From positions 2,976,001 through 3,040,000 of the forward strand of contig NW_027248941.1 in assembly GCF_036711975.1 (NCBI RefSeq): DNA of 64,000 bases, in the 5' to 3' direction. How positions within the stretch are numbered: position 1 is the stretch's first letter; every line of letters starts with the position of its first letter. The position numbers and the translations under genes are program-made. The notes beneath the pieces were generated by a model. The model searched no databases. It was not told the origin of the DNA and was given only the letters and a program-made list of their open reading frames with translations. This DNA is from Onthophagus taurus (lineage: Eukaryota; Arthropoda; Insecta; Coleoptera; Scarabaeidae). Positions 5,440 to 64,000 of this stretch are shown in pieces.

Positions 5440-5945
5440 AGAAAGGCAACAAGAACAGAAGACTATTTCAATCGAGTTTAGTATTTAAGGCGTTGTAACT
5501 GACTTTGGTTTATATTTGTATTGTCCAAGAATAAAGCGAAAATGTTAAAAATGTCAAAATGTTAAAAAATCAATCATTACTTCAAAACTAGAAGCGATGG
5601 AAGAAAATGTTATGGATGAAAATTGTTGATATCGAACCAATTAAGCTTAATTCATAACGATGTTTTATTTCAGCTGTTATTATTTTCTAGAAACAAAGCA
5701 AAAATGTTATAATATTGAAAAATCAATCACTACTTCAAAACTACAACCGCTGGAAGAAAATGTTGTGCATGAAAATGGTTGATTCTTATTTCATAACAAA
5801 GTTTTATATCAGTTGTTACCATTTTCCAGAAATAAGGCGAAAACTTTAAAAATGTTAAAATGTTGAAAAATCAATCATTACTTCAAAACTAGAACCGATG
5901 GAAGAAAATATTCTGTACGAAAATTGTTAATATTGAACCAATCAA
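5440..5945. repeat. ~150-bp tandem repeat, three degenerate copies
   Basis: The segment ATCAATCA(T/C)TACTTCAAAACTA followed by a GAAGAAAATGTT-type stretch recurs with TTCAAAACTA at 5581, 5734 and 5882, i.e. spacings of 153 and 148 bases. Copies differ by substitutions and small indels. There is no coding capacity. The repeat fills most of the spacer between the small unknown gene and the homeobox gene. Confidence 0.75.
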
Positions 5946-6319
5946 GAATAATATAACAGTAAATATAACAATAATTCTTTAAATCACAAACACAGTCTTT
6001 CTTTTGAAAGAAAGAAAAAAATAAAATGCTTAAAAATAATTTAGGTCGCAAATAAATGTGTATATACATATATATATACAGATTTTCCGTCTATATTTTC
6101 CCGGAAACCCTAGGAAAACGGCCGCGGGCTTTCAGGTGAAAAAAATATCGAGTGCATAAACGGTTGTAGAGCTTCGATACGGGGCGTTAAAACACAATTG
6201 TAAACCGTCAGAAATGTTCAAACACCTCGCCGAGTTCGTTGTTTGTTGTATCGCGTTAAAAAAAATTTATAAACCACCAAAAAACCATTTAATTTAATTT
6301 ATTTTTCGATCTTGTTCGA

Positions 6320-10388: not shown

Positions 10389-11998
10389 AGCACCGTTGAG
10401 AATACAACCAGCTGGTTCGAGAAACGAACGTTGAAATATTCAAGGGAATTCGAAACGATGCAGCAACCTTCCAGGTTACACTGCAACTTTTACTACTTCG
10501 CCAGCAATAAGTGGAACACCTCTACATACTGCATTACACCCGAGGGGGTTATTCTAGAATTTGAGTGGGCGCAAATGACGTTCTTAAGAAAATCCATTTG
10601 GGATTACGTGTTGTTGATTTGATTTTTTTTTAATTTTATTATTAAGAGAAATTAATTTATTAATTTACGAAATCTACGCTAAATTTCCTTTAATTTGAGC
10701 ACAAACACGACTATTTTATTTTAAAAAATAAAAAAAATCGTTGACAGAAAATTTTCAAAATGGCGGAGTAATATTTAATTCGAAATCTAGGCTAAAAGTG
10801 CTTTGAAATGAGCCCAAACACGTCTACTTTATATTAATAAATAGAAAAATTACAAAAAATTGGGGTGATTCATTTCAAAATGGCGGAATAAATGACGTTT
10901 TATGTCATATTAGTAGTTTTTGAGATAAATTAGTCGTGTTTGGGCTCATTTGATAACATTTTTTATTATTTACAAGATGGTGTTGAAGATAATTGGGAAA
11001 AATACAATTTTTGTAGCAACTGTCAAATTTAGTTAATTCTAAAATGGCGGATTTATAATCAAATTATTAATCTTGATTAAAAATCTTTTAAAATGAGTTC
11101 AAACACGACTGCTTTATCTTAATAAGTAAAAAAAATTGGAGTGATTAAATTTCAAAATGGCGGAGTTGACATTTTATGTCAAAATGGTGGTGTTTAAGAT
11201 AAATTAGTCGTGTTTGGGCTCATTTTAAAGCAATTCCTATTTACTACAAGATAGTGGTAGAGATAATTGGCAAAAACAATTTTAAATGTCAATTTTAATT
11301 AATTCCAAAATTGCGTATTAACAATTAATTATTAACCTCGATTAAAAATCATTTAAAATGAGCCCAAGCACACCTACTTTATCTTAATAAATAAGAAAAA
11401 ATTTAAAAATTGACAATTAAATTTCAAAATGCCGGAATTAATGACATTTTATGTCACATTGCTGATTTTTAATATAAATTAGTAGTGTTTGGCTTCACTT
11501 AAAGCACTTTTTATTTCTTACAAGATGCTTTTCAAGGCAATTAAAATTTTTTTTAAATAAAATGGAACGATTTAACATAAATATCATTTTTGATGAAACC
11601 CTCATTGAATTTCCTTTAATTAGAGTACAAACTCGACGGGATTATCTCAAAAATTAACCGAAATATGACACTTCAAAAATAGGCGTTCGTCGCTTGTTTT
11701 TCGAGCTGTCAAAAATTTAAACTTCGACATTTTCGTTATTTTTAAAGATAACTTGGTTGAGTTTAGGCTCAAATTATCGCATTTTTCGCGGAGATTGCGA
11801 TAATAATACTTTTTAAAATTTTAAAAATTAATTAATTTTAGCGGCTCATTTAATATCGGGGCGATATGGACATTCTCACATGGATATTCAGAAAAAGTTG
11901 ATGTGGGGGTTAAAATTGATTTTATCGAATGTGTTGATAGTTTCAGTCACTATGGTTTCCGGTGTCTACGCGATGATACATTATTAACCTCAACGGGT
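10389..11998 (+). CDS. doubtful two-exon gene or gene fragment, unknown
   Basis: Two stretches with coding-like composition. The first, after an acceptor-like ttttcaaag at 10390, runs open to 10620 and encodes NTTSWFEKRTLKYSREFETM, then SRLHCNFYYFASNKWNTS, YCITPEGVILEFEWAQM. The second, after the acceptor TTTTAG at 11841, is open to about 11996 in two frames. One frame gives a hydrophobic helix (SNVLIVSVTMVSGVYAMIHY); the other gives FIECVDSFSHYGFRCLRDD and joins in phase if the first exon ends at ATGAC|gttctt. No convincing start codon exists. Family not recognised. It could be a degraded gene or the 3' end of an alternative transcript of the CUB gene. Confidence 0.25.
10675..11815. repeat. 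palindromic dispersed repeats, block 3
   Basis: At least four units in alternating orientation. Forward motifs AAATGAGCCCAAACACG(T/A)CTA are followed by TTCAAAATGGCGGA and then inverted CGTGTTTGGGCTCATTT. The motif 'TCAAAATGGCGG' repeats near 10757, 10871 and 11153. The density suggests tandem or nested insertion of one short inverted-repeat family. Confidence 0.75.
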
Positions 11999-12193: not shown

Positions 12194-15100
12194 ATGAAAA
12201 TACCAGTTAATTTTTCGCGTAAAAATTCGAACGAAATGGAGAATAACAATTATAAAGAAGTGAGTACGTTGTTTATGGAATCGGAGAAGCGGAAAAGTTC
12301 TCCTGGTGAGTGAATTTTATGCCCGTTTAAGTTCATAAAAAATTCATCTTCATGAATTGTTTAATATGCAGTCATTAAAACGGAAAGTTGTAAAACTAAT
12401 CGATATATTAATTTAATTCTTTTTAGGGTCATCGAGAAGACCAAGCAACGAGAGCGGGTGCAGTTTCAACATGCCTTCGTACGAGCGCTTGGACACCCCA
12501 TCGTATTTGAACAATACTCGCTCGAAATCTTTGGTTAATTTGCCAAAAAACCCAACGGGGAAGCTCTACGAAATCGACAACGAAGATCGCTTAAACGGAA
12601 TCGAGGAAAGCCCGAGGAATAAATTGTCCCGAAGAAGATCTTCGTTGCAACTCGATAAAAGAATCGGGAAAAGCTCGATTCAACCGATAAGCACGCCTTT
12701 AGCCAAAGACTGTTTTGGGCCGCAATTAAACAACGACATCTCAAACACTTTACCCGGAACCCCAATCCCTTCTCTTGTACCAGAAACACCCGATTTTGAT
12801 TTTGGCGCAACTCCCCCCATAACACCGATTGAAAAGGAAGAGGTACAAAAAATTATTTATTTTAAATTTTTAAACCAGCCTGTAAACATCAAAATTAATT
12901 ATTTTTAAACGAACGCTCAAAAAGTGTCCTATGAGGTGTTCAAAATTGCGATTAAATAATAAATCAGTTAACCCACCTCATTTTTAATCGAACCGTTTAA
13001 ATATTCACGAAACCCATTGATTTAAAAACACCTGTAAAACACGCAAACGACAGTTTCAAGTCGACTAATCAAAATTGTTTTTTCATTTAGACACCGGATC
13101 CGGAAAGTTTGTATTTTCGCGACGGTCGTCGTAAAATCGACATGGTCCTAGTATACGAAGAGGAAGAATTCGGCGTGATGACCGAGGCCGAGGCGAAACG
13201 GCGCGATCAACGCAAAACGTTCCAAGACAACCTAATGAAGGAAGGTTTAGAACTCGAATTGGAACACAAAGACTTAGCGTACGACGGAAAAACGTGGTTC
13301 CTTAAAATCCACTTACCCTGGAAAACGAAAACGAGATACGCGGCCGTTATGGGGATGAAACTCCCCACGAAACGGTTCATAACAATATCGGTTAAAGCGT
13401 GGGACGACGACAAAAACGCAAAGTTACAGAAAGGGTTTTATTCGCGTTGGAGGGACAAGTGGAAGGAAGTTTTTGAGTACGATCATGATTTGATTGATCC
13501 CGAACCATCGTTTTATGATAGCACTTATGGACCGGATCGCGAGGAGCAATTTATTGTTAAAGATCGCGTCACCGCGTATTCGAGCGCGCAAAGAAGTTTG
13601 ATTGTCATGCAAATATTATTAAGAGTTAAATTCGATGACACCGATAAGGTGGGAATTCGAAGACTTTTAAATGACACGACCTATTTGGCTTGTTTCCCTT
13701 TGCACGAAGGGAGGTTTGATAAAGAAGATAGCTCGGGGAAAATTTTAGATCGGCGCTTACTGTACCTGCAATGGGCGAGGCCTTCAAAGTGGTACAAAAG
13801 ACAACCTTTAAATATGGTTAGGAAATATTTCGGGGATAAAATCGCGCTGTATTTTTGTTGGTTGGGGTTTTACACGAAGATGCTTTATGCCCCGGCGATT
13901 GTGGGAACTTTGTGTTTTCTTTATGGGTTATTTTCGATGGATAGCGAGGATAATATTCCAAGGTAAGGACACTCTGTATATTATTTGAAATAGATTGATT
14001 CAAAAAAATTTTACAAATTTATACCACTTATTCGATATCTCCACTGTGGAGCGTTATATATCGATTTAACAATGACATTTTGAGATTATCTCGATAATTA
14101 TTGCTTTAATAAAACAATTTTTTTATTAAAAACAATTTGAATTGATTAAAAAAAACATTTCGATTAAATTTATTTCAAAAGACTAAATTTTAGTTTTACT
14201 TTTTGACCACCCCTTGTATATTTATTAATTTTTAAAGCGAATCAAAAAATGTTTCGAATAATAATTGATCCAAATTTGATAAAACAAACTTTTTTTCTTA
14301 ATAAATTTATTTGATATATCCGCTAGGGGGCGCTGTACACTATTTTAAAAGTGACATTTTGAGGATAGTCCATTAATAATTGATTTAATAAAACAACTTC
14401 ATTAACAAAAAGGATTTAGCATCGCAAAAATAAAATTATATACACACAATTTATTCTATACAGGGTGTCTCACGTAACTGGTTCGTTAGAACTTTTTTTA
14501 GGTTCCAGTATTCGTACAGTTTTGAAATTTTGGTAGTATGGGTTGTTCAGTCAGAACTTTCGATCTAAAATATTTTCAAGATGACTGCCACTTCCGGTCT
14601 ACCGGAAGTAGACCATAACTTCGTTATTTTAAATGGAATGCTATAGTTTTTATTACACCTTTTAATTGTACGTAAAAAAATATGTTGACTTTCATAAAAG
14701 TTATTGGTACCTAGCGTTTTTCGTTTTCGAGTTATTTTGATTTTAAGATTTTTTTGGCAAATTTCGCCATGCTCTTTAAAACCTTATATCCCAGCCAACG
14801 TTCTTTCAAAAAAGCTCTAAATTGGCACGATTACTCTTCAGATGCTGTCAAATAGATTGTCATATATTGTATCAGAATATCTTATACAGAATGGTCAAAA
14901 ATTGAATTACCGTTTCTACATATTCAATGCGGAGAAAGTCGAAATTTTTAAATGGAATACCCCATTTTTTATTAGCCTACACGAAAGGGAATTTAATTCT
15001 CTACAATTTATCTATAAACATTCCTATACCTATTTATTGTAGTTTCTCTCATATTCGTAAATTTATCAAAACGTGCAGGAAATGCAGGAAACCGTTTGTA

Positions 15101-28466: not shown

Positions 28467-30639
28467 TCACACCTCCAAGTGTTTTGCTGTTGTGAACGAT
28501 TTAAACGGCTCAGACCACATTCTTCTCAAATCGCCCTAATAATACAAGCGGAAATTAATAAGAACATGAAACAACTTCTGTACTTACTTTTAAATAGGCC
28601 ATAGTTAATAAAGGTAGCAGCGTGAAGGGCACAAGATATAAAAGGGCTGGTTGGGCGGCTTTAAACACCTCCGAGCTAACTGTAGCAGTTAAGAGACCGA
28701 GGAAATAGCCGAGTAATGAACAGTGAAAGTAGGTCAGGCGCGATCCGGTCAAACCTTGCGATTTCTTGTACGCATCGTATCTCAGAACGAAGCACAACAA
28801 TAATCCCGGCATGACGATATCACCAAGACCTAAACAAATTAAATTAATTTTTATTAGGCTACACTTACGCCCTAATTACCCAACATGCTAAAATGACCAG
28901 AATTATGTATACTAGGAAAAACCAGCTTCCCCGGTAAAGATAACTTTGGGGCCTCTTTGGCTACAGTCCCCAAATGAAGCTTTCTAGCTACCAAGCCAAC
29001 GGGGTTATCAGCGGGTCTTGTTGCAACCTAAAAAATGTAAATGTAGAATCATTTAAGAAAAATCGTAAGAACCCACCTTAACCATAACATTTGTGCTAAA
29101 AATATACGATGAGAAAAACACCCAAAATACATCATATATTAACAATCCCGTTAATAGTAACGTAGATACTTTTAAACTCGGTAATCTTACGAATGCTATA
29201 AAAGCTACGCATAAACCCATCCCCATCGCGTCCATCAATAACCAATGACCTAACCTCAAAAAAATCACAAATAATTATTAATTTCGATTAAAACAACGTT
29301 TGTCTTCGTACCTGTTAACACCCAAATGCAAACGATAAACACTGAAAGCGAAAACGATAATAATTCGGCTCCGGTGAATCGGCCGCACATTCCAAAAGAG
29401 ATTTTATTGCCATCCGAACACGGTCTGATTATGTACTGGCACATTGGGAGGAGTAAAAATGCCAGTGCTACAGTTGCTATTACTAAAAAATAATAATAAT
29501 GAACTAAAAATTTAAAAAAAAATTTTTAAGGTTATAATTATTACAAATTTTCTTCTCAAGCTCGATTATATAATAATTTGATAAGATTTAATTATCATAG
29601 TAATTATTCATTACTTTGATTGAATTCCTTTTTAATTAATCAGTATTTTGCAATCAATTACATAAATTTTAAAAAAAGTGAGGTTAGAGTTAAAAAGATT
29701 AAAAAAAACATCATGAAGTTGTCCATTTGTCTATAATATGATAACTAACTTCAAGTTTAAAATGTCAACCTCAAATTTTGACTTATCTTCAGACCCAAGG
29801 ATAACCCCAAATGTTTCTAGTTTTAGGTCTAGTGTTAGTTCTAGTTTTAGTGCAATAAAAATATGCAATATAGGGATATCTTATGCTAACTAGCACTAAA
29901 AAAAATTTTGTTTGAGGTTATAATTATTAAAATTTTTTTTTCTCAATCTCGATTATTTAATAATTTGATAAAATTCAATTTCAAAATAGGACAAAACCCA
30001 TTATTGATTGCTAATAATTATTACTTTGATTGCATTCCTTTTTAATTAATCACTATTTTGCAATCAATTACTTAGAAATAAAAAAAAAAAAAGTGAGGTT
30101 AGACTAAAAAAAGATTATTAAAATTCTAACCTACAAAAATGAAATTAACATAAACTTATTGATTGGTAATAATTATTTCTTTGATTGACTTCCTTTTTAA
30201 TTAATCACTATTTTGCAATCACTTAGAATTTAAAAAAAAAAGTGAGGTTAGATTTAAAAAACTTATTAAAATCTTAACCTAAAAAAAATTAAATTAACAC
30301 AAACTTACTTGCCGTACAAATAGCAAACAACATTTGCATCGAATCGAAAAAGAAAAACATCACCAACAACGATATGCTCGCCCCCAATGGTAAACAAAGT
30401 GCTTGCAACGTATCCAATGTTTGAACGTTCGTTTCAGATTGTAATTGCGTTGTGGGATGTAACAAACAATTAGTTGTTCCGGCGGCTCTATCTCGAGCTT
30501 CTTGTTCCATGTTTAAACTTCGAAACGATCCGTAAACTATCAACAACATTGAAATTAAAAACGTTGAAACACGACTTGAATCTACGATATTGTAAGCCCA
30601 TTGGTACTCGACCGTTTGTTGACCATTCGCATCAGCCAT
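28467..30639 (-). CDS. Sppl3: signal peptide peptidase-like 3 (intramembrane aspartyl protease)
   Basis: Six exons (30639-30309, 29482-29312, 29249-29077, 29027-28880, 28829-28588, 28535-28467) encode 377 residues in perfect phase. It matches SPPL3 along its length: [50 protein letters not shown]. Catalytic aspartates lie in [12 protein letters not shown] (YD motif) and [10 protein letters not shown] (GxGD); the PAL motif is [12 protein letters not shown]. The C-terminus MWSEPFKSF...HLEV resembles the human tail. The enzyme sits in the Golgi and sheds glycosyltransferases and similar type II proteins. Typical for SPPL3, there is no N-terminal signal peptide and no protease-associated domain. 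Confidence 0.97.
29526..30275. repeat. three degenerate direct repeats in SPPL3 intron 1
   Basis: The stretch ATTACTTTGATTG.ATTCCTT followed by TTAATTAATCA.TATTTTGCAA, an A-run and GTGAGGTTAGA occurs near 29605, 30015 and 30172. The first two copies share a further 5' part (GGTTATAATTATTA...CTCGATTAT) starting near 29530 and 29915. This indicates local duplication within the intron. Confidence 0.7.
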
Positions 30640-59600: not shown

Positions 59601-60524
59601 TAGATGAAATCTAACCTTAAATTGATACAATAAATTTCTTTTCTTTCAGAAATTGTAACGAAAACATTTTTTTTTGATTATCAATAAATTTCAGTATTAA
59701 TTACTATACTGTATTGACACCAAACCATGCCATCTCATCACGATGCCAAGCATAATTAAGCCGAGGTCGCTTGCGGGCGAGGTGCTACATTGATACCATA
59801 TTAATGTAAAATAGTATTATCTCTCAAGTATGTGTCATACCTAACCATCTCACCACGATATGAAGCTTAATAAAGCCGAGGTCGCTTGCGGCCGAGGCAT
59901 AATATCGATACCATATTGATACAAAACCAGAGTATATTTCATGTACTCATCAAACAAACCCATATCATCACTATATCAAGCGTAATGAAGCTGAGGTCAT
60001 TTGCAGACGAAGCACAATATCGATACCATATTCTTATTAAGCCAGACCATATTTTAAGTATCCATGCCTAACCATCTCATCACGGTATCAAGCGTGATTA
60101 AGCCGATGGCGATGATGATTCGATGATTCTTTCTTAAATTAACTAATTTTTCCGCCCGAATCGATTAGTGGTGGTTAAAACCTATAACGTTAATTGATTG
60201 TCAAAATAATATGATATAAAAACGTCTTTAAGAAAATATTTGTGAAGTAGATTTTCCGGAACAAGGAATAATTATCTATATTTGCCCAGTCCAAGGACGA
60301 GTAGGTCTCTAATCCAATCCATCCAAGCGAGTACCGAGCACCGACAACTCGAGATGCAAATCCAACGTATTTTTCAGAGGTAAATTTACAATGGAAAACG
60401 CGAACCTACCGTTGTCGCTTCGGAGACAAATAGAGACACCCCCGTTTTTAAATTATCGATCTCCCTTTAAATGTGTCACCTTGAAACTATTTTTTTTTTA
60501 TGCTTTATTTTTTTTTTCGGTTAG
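56621..60524. other. long spacer and probable 5' leader region of the next gene
   Basis: No supported CDS in nearly 4 kb. Candidates only: an open exon at 57945-58091 (MIKNYPPKRINHFVSTQEML..., donor GGG|gtaacc), and a short one at 58526-58559 (MEKREDEGRRK, donor AAAG|gtgatg). Neither joins in frame to the exon at 60525, so they may be untranslated leader exons or chance. GC-richer patches at 58260-58560 and 60290-60360 suggest promoter or leader. The 115-bp tandem repeat occupies 59700-60115. Confidence 0.4.
59700..60115. repeat. ~115-bp tandem repeat, about four copies
   Basis: The motif GCCGAGGTCGCTTGCGG.CGAGG recurs at 59760, 59875 and, diverged, at 59990 and about 60102, each preceded by CATCTCATCACGAT..CAAGC and followed by ATCGATACCATATT. 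Spacings are 115, 115 and 112 bases. A single related inverted copy lies at 27400-27560. Confidence 0.8.
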
Positions 60525-60778
60525 GTTCTTCGAAGATAACAAGATGGAGCTGCTGCTCGAGGCGAAGAACGACCACCGAGCGGTAGTGCCCCAACAAATT
60601 GGCCAAAAACGACATGAAATTGAGCGTTTCCGCTTATAGAGCTCACGCTTCGGCTCATAAAAAAATCTTGGACACCGCTTATCAACTTAATTATGGGTCA
60701 ACGGCGGCTTCACACTATCACCACAATCAACACCATCCTACGACTAGTTCTATTAATACTTCAACGATGCCATTTCAG
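60525..60778 (+). CDS. first coding exon of an unidentified gene that continues past the window
   Basis: After an acceptor (TTCGGTTAG, 60524), the exon runs to a donor (TTTCAG|gtaaaa). The likely start is the ATG at 60614 (context AACGACATGA), giving MKLSVSAYRAHASAHKKILD and TAYQLNYGSTAASHYHHNQH, 55 codons in phase 0. An upstream ATG at 60544 opens a 32-codon overlapping frame (MELLLEAKNDHRAVVPQQIG) that ends at 60640 and could act as a uORF. A His/Asn/Thr-rich low-complexity segment follows. No later exon was found before 64000, so the next intron is longer than 3.2 kb. Product not recognised. Confidence 0.5.
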
Positions 60779-61124
60779 GTAAAAAATTAACTTTTCTAGA
60801 GGTATGATGATGAAAGTAGGTCCTCAAGTAGCCCCATCGCACGCTCGAGGATTGCATGTAAGGGTCTTTTTCTTGTTCAAGATGAAATTAAAGGGGTAAT
60901 TGAGTTGGGTGTTTTTCTTTTTGAAGGGCTTGTTTTTGTGTTGAAGAAAATTTAATTTCGAATATTTCAATAGTTTGATTTATCCCGGTGAGACGACCTC
61001 TTCAAATGTGACCCACAAACTCTTTCGGTGACATGACATGGAAGCAGGCACGTGCTTGGCCTTAAATATATTGAATGGGGGACAAATAACGCTATTTTTA
61101 ACGATCAATATTTTATTTCAAAAA

Positions 61125-61691
61125 TTAACAAAGAGTAATTTTAACCAGAGCTAAATTTCCTCCGTTTCTGGTTAAAGTATAATAAGTCCCGATCGGTTCG
61201 TGCATCGCAGGGGTAAAACTTTTTATTTCTTCCTCCGTAACTAAACCCTTAATTGATGTTTTTCGTTTAAAATCATTTTCATTATTAAGCGAAAGTAATG
61301 ATTCTTGAAACGATTTTAATTTCGATGGGTTTAAATTGAAATTAAACGGTTTGTTTTCGATTTTTTCAACTTCTAAAATCACTTTTTTATTAAAATTTTC
61401 TTCTTTTTTCATTACGTTTTCATCGAAATGTTCTTTTCTTATATCGAAATTATCCTCATTTTTATTATTTAAGTTCTCCTCCGCTAAATAATCTTCGTTC
61501 TGTTCAATTTTGAGTTTTTCAATTTCCCTCACTAAGTTTTCTAATCTTTCGATTCTAAGTTTTGTTAATGTATGAAAATGTTCCTTAAGGACGGCTAATA
61601 CCAAATGGATGTTGGGTAAAGCTAATTTTCTTGTTCTTTCCGAACAATTTGAATATACACATTTCGATTTTTCCAAAAAACTCATTTTCAC
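61125..61691 (-). CDS. single-exon coiled-coil protein, unknown, nested in an intron
   Basis: A 188-codon frame. The first half reads MKMSFLEKSKCVYSNCSERT and then ALPNIHLVLAVLKEHFHTLT with a coiled coil (KLRIERLENLVREIEKLKIE). An Asn/Glu/Lys-rich linker follows, and the C-terminus is FTPAMHEPIGTYYTLTRNGG with NLALVKITLC. The alternative start three codons in (MSFLEK) is possible. It lies on the opposite strand within what appears to be the first coding intron of the gene starting at 60614. The general build (helical N-part, disordered linker) is like small kinetochore or centrosome proteins, but no family could be named. Confidence 0.6.
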   Translation of the reverse strand: MKMSFLEKSKCVYSNCSERTRKLALPNIHLVLAVLKEHFHTLTKLRIERLENLVREIEKLKIEQNEDYLAEENLNNKNEDNFDIRKEHFDENVMKKEENFNKKVILEVEKIENKPFNFNLNPSKLKSFQESLLSLNNENDFKRKTSIKGLVTEEEIKSFTPAMHEPIGTYYTLTRNGGNLALVKITLC

Positions 61692-61799
61692 ACTCGAAAT
61701 TTCACAGACTCGTCAAAAATTTTTGACAACGATTAATGACCGGAAACAAATTTTGTTTTTTTACGAAAAATATTTCAAATAATATTTGATTATAATTGA

Positions 61800-63320
61800 A
61801 AGATGAACAACTTTTCTTTTTGATGTCTCCGCGAGTTGGCGCTGTGTACTCTTATAAAAAACCAGTTTTTCGGTAATAATTAATCCGTGCATGATTAATT
61901 TTATCTAAAAATGCTTCAAATAATAGTTGATTAGAATCAAAAAAGGAACAATTTTTCTTAATAAAATTTCTCTATATCTCCGCTAGGTGGTGCTGTGTAC
62001 TCTTATAAAAAACCAGTTTTTCGATAATAATCCGTGCATGATTAATTTTATCTAAAAATGCTTCAAATAATAGTTGATTAGAATCAAAAAAGGAACAATT
62101 TTTCTTAATAAAATTTCTCTATATCTCCGCTAGGTGGTGCTGTGTACTCTTATAAAAAACCAGTTTTTCGGTAATAATCCGTGCATGATTAATTTTATCT
62201 AAAAATGCTTCAAATAATAGTTGATTAGAATCAAAAAAGGAACAATTTTTCTTAATAACATTTCTCTATATCTCCGCTAGGTGGTGCTGTGTACTCTTAT
62301 AAAAAACCAGTTTTTCGGTAATAATCCGTGCATGATTAATTTTATCTAAAAATGCTTCAAATAATAGTTGATTAGAATCAAAAAAGGAACAATTTTTCTT
62401 AATAACATTTCTCTATATCTCCGCTAGGTGGTGCTGTGTACTCTTATAAAAAACCAGTTTTTCGGTAATAATCCGTGCATGATTAATTTTATCTAAAAAT
62501 GCTTCAAATAATAGTTGATTAGAATCAAAAAAGGAACAATTTTTCTTAATAACATTTCTCTATATCTCCGCTAGGTGGTGCTGTGTACTCTTATAAAAAA
62601 CCAGTTTTTCGGTAATAATCCGTGCATGATTAATTTTATCTAAAAATGCTTCAAATAATAGTTGATTAGAATCAAAAAAGGAACAATTTTTCTTAATAAC
62701 ATTTCTCTATATCTCCGCTAGGTGGTGCTGTGTACTCTTATAAAAAACCAGTTTTTCGGTAATAATCCGTGCATGATTAATTTTATCTAAAAATGCTTCA
62801 AATAATAGTTGCTTAGAATCAAAAAAGGAACAATTTTTCTTAATAAAATTTCTCTATATCTCCGCTAGGTGGTGCTGTGTACTCTTATAAAAAACCAGTT
62901 TTTCGGTAATAATCCGTGCATGATTAATTTTATCTAAAAATGCTTCAAATAATAGTTGATTAGAATCAAAAAAGGAACAATTTTTCTTAATAAAATTTTT
63001 CTATATCTCCGCTAGGTGGTGCTGTGTACTCTTATAAAAAACCAGTTTTTCGTTTATAATTAAATCGCGCATGATTAATCATTAATTTTAGCGAAAAATG
63101 TTTCAAATAATAGTTGATTAGAATCGAAAAAGAAACAATTTTTGTTAATAAATTTTTTTGATATTTCCGATAGGTGTCGCTCTGTACTATTATAAAAAAT
63201 TTCTTTTACACTTTAGCGAGAAATGTTTCAAATAATATTTGTTTATAATTGAAAGAGGAACAACTTTGCTTGATATTTTTTAGTATCTCCGCTAGGTGTC
63301 GCTCTGCACTATTATAAAAA
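61800..63320. repeat. 147-bp satellite array, eight close copies plus diverged edge copies
   Basis: CGCTAGGTGG occurs at 61981, 62128, 62275, 62422, 62569, 62716, 62863 and 63010, exactly 147 bases apart each time. The copies differ by one or two bases, with TAAAATTTC/TAACATTTC variants. More diverged units lie at the edges (61830 CGCGAGTTGGCGCTG; 63178 CGATAGGTGTCGCTC; 63290 CGCTAGGTGTCGCTC) with altered spacing. Each unit carries CTCCGCTAGGTGGTGCTG, close to the CTCF consensus. The near-identity of the inner copies points to recent unequal exchange. Confidence 0.95.
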
Positions 63321-64000
63321 TGTTCAAAGTGAAATCATAATTACATTAGAGTACATCTTGTTTAAGGCTGATTAAAATACTAATAATTCCATAATCAAGA
63401 ATAATGCCGAATACCACTTTATCCTCTTTAGAGGTTAATAACGAAGTGAGAAAGGGGTATTCCTGATGACAATATGACGGAGATGATTATAATTTCCGGT
63501 CGCAATTCAATTTGCGCGCGCCCTTCTCCTTCTCTTCACCTCGCCCCCAGCGCTAATTCGAATAATGGATGTAAACCGTTACGAGAAGTGCTTAGTTAAC
63601 ATTAAAAGTAGCTTTAAAAGAGGGTTTTGATAAAACGTTGAACCTTTTTAAACTTTTAAATTTGTTTAATTAAACTTTTATAATTTAAAAGAGACGTTAT
63701 TTGAAGTTTTAAAATATTTTTCAAGTCTGGAAACTTTTAGCAAATAACCTGTTTACATTCTAATCTCAGTCCGTTGACATCTCTATTGAACCTCTTTCGT
63801 AAAGTGAGGATGGGATGGGGAAATATGCGAGAAAATGCGAGTTGGAATGTAAAATGCCGGTTTAACACGACGATTTTGTTGGAATTGTCACGTCCTGTAC
63901 TCTGGCACCGTCGACGAACAATCTCGACGCTTTAAACTTTACAGTTTACACACTCAGTTTATATACAGTTTACGCCGAGTTTTTAAAGTGTAAAATGAGA
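63321..64000. other. intronic or spacer DNA
   Basis: No exon is supported. GCGCGCGCCC occurs near 63516 in a short GC-rich patch, followed by AT-rich DNA to the window end. If the gene starting at 60614 continues, this is intron. Confidence 0.4.

Follow-up and report, generated by a model that had tools for sequence, protein, structure and literature searches.

A homogenised 147-base satellite array in Onthophagus taurus whose CTCF-like box is probably old and mostly decayed

Introduction

When every unit of a short satellite array carries a sequence resembling a CTCF site, does the array serve as a row of insulator sites, or has a single resemblance been copied along with the unit? This question is raised by an array near one end of a 64,000-nucleotide stretch of the Onthophagus taurus genome (contig NW_027248941.1, positions 2,976,001 to 3,040,000), which is the whole stretch analysed here and is referred to as the window. 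An earlier note on this DNA had suggested that the array may be a cluster of insulator-protein sites at nucleosome-length spacing, lying in an intron or promoter-proximal spacer.

A survey covering arthropods and outgroups reported CTCF in transcript libraries from 105 species (PMC5094011), and the CTCF motif is described as virtually identical in four Drosophila species and as resembling that of vertebrates (PMC3491045); a 14-base CTCF core has been given as CCNNNAGGGGGCGC (PMC10287918). In the DXZ4/Dxz4 macrosatellite, a tandem array for which CTCF binding was shown, conservation between mammals is reported to be restricted to the CTCF motif (PMC3491370), while in rodents new CTCF binding sites have been reported in transposon-borne repeats (PMC7520972). 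Among the titles and abstract openings covered by our literature search, we found no report of a CTCF core in an insect satellite.

Results

The array is homogenised in its middle and diverged at its edges

The exact 147-base spacing of eight units described in the earlier note was reproduced, with cores reading CCGCTAGGTGGTGCTG at 61980, 62127, 62274, 62421, 62568, 62715, 62862, and 63009, each starting 147 bases after the previous one, together covering 61980 to 63024, and all in one and the same orientation. The readings of a diverged copy at 14320 (CCGCTAGGGGGCGCTG) and of an edge copy at 61829 (CCGCGAGTTGGCGCTG) also agree with that note. Matches to the core with at most three mismatches number 11 in the window, compared to a mean of 0.01 in 100 shuffles. 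Tandem Repeats Finder reports one array at 61826-63199 (period 147, 9.2 copies, 96% matches), which a profile of the family widens to 61757-63321 by adding diverged edge monomers. On the plus strand, the widened array comprises a diverged partial monomer at the left edge (61757..61818; profile match 26.2 bits, E 3.4e-7), a left edge monomer in which the core at 61829 keeps GGC (61828..61968), the eight units, the last of them with indels (61979..63154), a diverged monomer with core CCGATAGGTGTCGCT (63166..63275), and the start of another with core CCGCTAGGTGTCGCTC at 63289 (63288..63321).

The core-to-core distance is 151 at the left edge and 158 and 122 at the right edge (cores at 63167 and 63289), indicating that the 147-base period is confined to the homogenised middle. 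Any two of units one to seven share 145-147 of their 147 positions, with four units being the same throughout; the eighth, owing to its indels, matches the others at just 83-85 positions without gaps. The copies thus lie head to tail with high within-array identity, as in a satellite. Since seven near-identical units point to recent local amplification, the eightfold core does not amount to eight independent observations. Searches for RNA families at gathering thresholds (60000-64000) and of phage records (the array) returned no match.

The array lies between two putative genes

The location in a spacer was borne out, in that the array sits between two putative genes pointing away from each other. 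To the left, a minus-strand open frame of 195 codons with no Pfam match (61125..61712) has its first Met approximately 70 bases from the array, which would place a putative gene start there. The putative gene to the right is outside the window and is represented by a plus-strand frame that matches Ion_trans (E 1.1e-7) and begins at approximately 69.05 kb in window numbering. The family profile also detected scattered plus-strand monomers at 64.4, 65.4-65.8, 67.3, and 68.5-68.7 kb (window numbering), as well as at 14238-14430. The last of these comprises a diverged partial monomer (14238..14304; plus strand; E 3.7e-5), flanked by two anoctamin-like exons (one recognised by Pfam, the next by reading the list of open reading frames), and a diverged monomer with core CCGCTAGGGGGCGCTG (14319..14430; plus strand). 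Further tandem repeats in the window were found at 5520-5946, 10847-11527, 30001-30307, and 59730-60032, with periods of 148, 274, 155, and 115, respectively.

Scattered old monomers, at 14.2 kb and at the four places to the right of the array, could have arisen if a transposable element contained the monomer as an internal or terminal repeat and one inserted copy had given rise to the array, and the occurrence of the same core in other repeats of the genome is consistent with this. However, no full-length element with the monomer was seen, and the monomers around the array all lie on one strand, which fits a decayed array better than separate insertions; we regard such an origin as very improbable.

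The core resembles a CTCF site, and the genome is predicted to encode CTCF

A 256-residue query from human CTCF matched C1:27292759-27293526 with 53% identity (E 8.3e-80), the second-best match having an E value of 3.1e-36. The open frame at C1:27292759, compared with the PDB, found human CTCF as its best match (residues 2 to 362, E 3.7e-108). TSGELVRH and SKLKRH are the same in this protein and human CTCF, and TFKLKRH differs by one residue from the human TYKLKRH. By these similarities, the genome encodes a predicted CTCF orthologue with fingers like the human ones.

The core was scored on vertebrate and fly CTCF matrices, which are reconstructions of the JASPAR matrices rather than copies, and all CTCF scores given here are on these reconstructed matrices. 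Each of the eight cores reaches 18.98 bits on the vertebrate matrix and 21.15 bits on the fly matrix, and the unit outscores 5000 of 5000 dinucleotide shuffles, the comparison with shuffled monomers that the earlier note had called for. As no shuffle reached the observed score, the resemblance to a CTCF site is real. The window's top site on both matrices is the monomer at 14320, with 24.29 (vertebrate) and 24.65 bits (fly). CTCF prefers GGC in the core, but T replaces the C of GGC in all eight units, and a GGC form would score 4.5-4.8 bits higher than the GGT form. With TTC in the middle of the unit, 11 of 5000 (vertebrate) and 111 of 5000 (fly) shuffles reached its score; with AAG, 3 and 676 of 5000 did so, respectively. 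In a near-relative array at C1:42.50 Mb, the commonest core, CCGCTAGGAAGCGCT (5 of 20), scores 2.6 bits compared to 21.1 for the window unit on the fly matrix, and 13.6 compared to 19.0 on the vertebrate matrix. The window units may bind CTCF weakly.

The match, the predicted orthologue, the shared orientation of the eight cores, and the position between divergent putative genes would all be consistent with a functional cluster in which CTCF occupies some or all units, holds the approximately 1.2-kb array open, and insulates the putative minus-strand gene on the left from the putative ion-channel gene on the right. Weighing against this are the GGT found in every unit, with its lower score, the preference for C at that position in sites across the genome (below), the lack of excess conservation of the CTCF-critical columns in the family (below), and the fact that a single recent amplification accounts for how many sites there are. 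We therefore consider occupancy of this kind unlikely.

The unit belongs to a dispersed family with several periods

A search of the 291 Mb genome with the unit gave at least 77 matches at E ≤0.001 among the 40 of 253 candidates that were scored, and related arrays occur on C1, C3, C5, C6, C10, and C11, as would be the case for a satellite. The family was sampled as 27 loci, namely 20 fetched regions and seven loci found via the core, and running an iterated profile over these loci gave 261 monomers or pieces. Family arrays have periods of 146-147, 283, 292, and 295, and one short array has a period of 158 by Tandem Repeats Finder. Because these periods differ among arrays (146, 283, 292, and 295), and because the edge distances of the window array (151, 158, and 122) depart from 147, the nucleosome-length spacing named in the earlier note carries little weight. 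A 147-base period is also too short to accommodate both a CTCF footprint and a nucleosome in each unit. Five family arrays (L058, L059, L060, L064, and L065) adjoin other tandem arrays with units of approximately 170-190 bases and, unlike the window array, resemble satellite-rich blocks.

Conservation in the family is not focused on the CTCF motif

If CTCF selected the core, it might be expected to change more slowly than the rest of the unit, and little sign of this was found. Conservation was compared over 123 windows of 15 columns, with each array counted once. In a set of 15 loci, from which L064 and L065 were dropped as near-copies of L063, the core ranks 2nd of 123 (mean 1.47 bits vs 1.20 for the rest), but this set is biased, given that L051, L052, L069, L071, and L072 were fetched for their consensus core and a sixth locus is the window's own array. 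In the nine arrays not chosen by core, the core ranks 27th of 123 (1.49 bits vs 1.40), and the two least conserved of its 15 columns are the Gs of KGGC. Thus, 27 of 123 windows equal or exceed the core in these arrays, compared to 2 of 123 in the biased full set. Variation within arrays is about equal in the core and elsewhere (mean minor frequency 0.082 for the core and 0.088 for the rest), with 42 of 123 windows matching the core in uniformity. The result comes close to the outcome that the earlier note had named as refuting its proposal, namely a core mutating as fast as the rest of the unit. Conservation also showed no correlation with CTCF information content (p >0.4 throughout) across 17 loci (Spearman -0.08 for fly and -0.16 for vertebrate), 15 loci (0.02 and -0.13), or the nine loci (0.19 and -0.10), values that hinge on the reconstructed matrices and on few arrays.

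The outer columns of the core are well kept in the family while the middle two vary, a pattern that could arise if a satellite-binding protein other than CTCF, or a step in amplification, recognises CCRCTAG and CGCTGTGTAC on either side regardless of the bases between them. Conservation equal to or above that of the core is found elsewhere in the unit, as in AAAATGTTTCAAATAA, and this would also be compatible with a holding influence other than CTCF. The rank of 27th in arrays not chosen by core does not favour any special holding of the box, however, and we consider this explanation improbable.

The CTCF-like box turns over within the family

Of the monomers, 191 have a core free of gaps, and their KGGC stretch is TGTC in 77, TTTC in 45, TGGC in 24, TATC in 14, TGGT in 10, and AAGC in 10, with TGAC, TCGC, and TGCC found twice each and AAAC, TTGC, and GGGC once each. 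An intact GGC is found in 10 of the 154 cores from loci not picked by core, a set that includes all of the near-copies L063-L065, the forms being TGTC (72), TTTC (44), TATC (14), TGGC (10), AAGC (10), and TGAC, AAAC, TTGC, and TGGT (1 each). A quick tree built without the core columns (158 rows; unrooted; 87 of 143 inner branches open) requires at least 13 changes between intact and lost GGC, a count to be read against its poor resolution, and its well-supported branches force 5 changes of the TGGC label. In this tree, the last window unit lies closest to monomers from C1:42.50 Mb that carry AAG or AAA. We also considered whether every homogenised array had lost GGC, and this was rejected, as the array at C11:29731569, which was found by the whole unit, keeps GGC in 5 of 6 cores. 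These results indicate that the CTCF-like box turns over; on an unrooted tree whose forks are mostly open, gain of GGC and loss of GGC are not separable.

The CTCF consensus is in large excess and is carried by unrelated repeats

Genome-wide, CTAGRKGGCGC occurs 982 times compared to 55 for the reversed control (base-frequency expectation 44), and the longer CCRCTAGRKGGCGC occurs 340 times compared to 2 (expectation 0.6). Allowing any base for the C of GGC gave 427 matches (control 4), and this position reads C in 81, T in 12, A in 4, and G in 3 of the first 100 matches listed; collapsing these to 63 places (gaps of at least 20 kb) gave C 48, T 11, G 3, and A 1. Changing the second G of KGGC instead gave 108 matches (control 5), of which 49 of the 100 listed lie, by hand count, inside fetched arrays of the 147-base family.

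We read 20 short stretches at the first C1 places, skipping C1:20893561 and taking one unit of a 377-base array. BLAST reduced these to 16 contexts, none of which matched the 147-base family at E <0.001 (best 0.0058). CCR directly precedes CTAG in 6 of the 16 contexts (1.3% expected; p 3e-8), implying that the consensus reaches beyond the pattern searched for.

Several of these sites lie in repeats. A 49-base tandem array (L097, C1:22285000-22285300, at C1:22285042), unrelated to the 147-base family, has CCGCTAGGTGGCGCCAC in the units seen, and it is a better candidate row of CTCF sites than the window array. The 377-base array, identified by its spacing, has the core at C1:1439201. One core-bearing repeat is common to C1:1.73, 3.49, and 19.16 Mb, and another to C1:2.68 and 18.38 Mb. 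A dispersed repeat with the core and with 43-base internal repeats occurs at five loci on C6 and C11, where the profile of the 147-base family finds nothing.

For neighbouring sites 8-20 kb apart in the first 100 matches listed with any base for the C of GGC, we counted 8 outward-facing pairs, 1 inward-facing pair, and 3 pairs on the same strand, and the excess of outward over inward pairs (p 0.04) was noticed after the fact. Outward-facing consensus pairs occur on C1, C2, and C3 at 8.6-17.3 kb, some with an inner spacing of 75 or 259 bases; examples are C2:28943554 (-) with 28955133 (+), and C3:21371308 (-) with 21383404 (+). Such pairs may be the inverted ends of large elements. An origin from Polintons in particular was unsupported in general, given that DNA_pol_B_2 (PF03175) was found inside one of the eight pairs listed, at C2:29206689 within the pair C2:29199883-29217189 (91 of 343 candidates scored). 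At least 51 DNA_pol_B_2 matches were found in the genome, many in long open frames (e.g., C8:20627490 and C11:5481309), and these suggest many Polinton-like elements.

Discussion

The array, its family, and the variation of its core are demonstrated in this analysis. The core resembles a CTCF site at the level of its letters, while selection by CTCF was not seen. As for the proposed cluster of insulator sites, the matrix match, the predicted orthologue, and the position between putative genes stand in its favour, but there was little sign of the CTCF selection on the core that it would lead one to look for. We therefore favour, as the probable reading, that the array is an ordinary satellite, amplified recently, whose CTCF-like box is old and for the most part decayed.

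Under this reading, a dispersed satellite family with a unit of approximately 140-150 bases would have held a CCRCTAGRKGNCGCTGTGTAC-like box resembling a CTCF site. In one unit, GGC would have become GGT by a CpG-to-TpG change, and local amplification of that unit would have produced the array, with GGT inherited by all eight cores. Each copy of the unit would bring the box with it, and the positions most important to CTCF would drift, giving GTC, TTC, ATC, AGC, and GGT. For this reason, the array most likely plays a passive part between its two putative neighbouring genes, amounting at best to a weak row of CTCF sites, and is not kept as an insulator. We infer its passivity, the order of these events, and the CpG decay. 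Counted against decay are the 5000 of 5000 shuffles that the unit outscores, the rank of 2nd of 123 with all loci included, the GGC kept at C11:29731569, the orthologue, and the genome-wide excess of the consensus.

The 1.688 satellite of Drosophila (PMC7642928, PMC5788526), an example of short satellite arrays dispersed among genes, probably differs from the 147-base family in sequence and unit length. The two are alike in being tandem families with homogenised short arrays on several chromosomes. The window array shares with DXZ4/Dxz4 its tandem units and a CTCF-like site in each, but its unit is approximately 147 bases, it is known from sequence alone, and within the core the columns critical for CTCF are conserved least; each unit scores high on the reconstructed matrices, yet the C of GGC is T in 8 of 8. 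The reports from rodents are paralleled here in that several repeats of this genome also carry the CTCF consensus, but those reports concern binding sites, whereas the evidence here is the letters, and the full consensus is mostly absent from the 147-base family.

The array itself is ordinary, being another short satellite near genes, and it offers a caution, namely that eight identical factor-like cores in a homogenised array are one observation. A better lead is that repeats of several kinds carry the CTCF consensus. It is possible, although we hold this tentatively, that unrelated repeats (the 49-base and 377-base arrays, the dispersed C6 and C11 repeat, at least two more, and the outward-facing pairs) each acquired CCRCTAGRKGGCGC, such that CTCF sites would repeatedly have travelled with, or been used by, selfish DNA in this species, the 147-base satellite being a lineage with a decaying site. 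With CCRCTAGRKGGCGC more than a hundredfold over its control and present in several repeats, the spread of CTCF sites by selfish DNA would become testable outside mammals.
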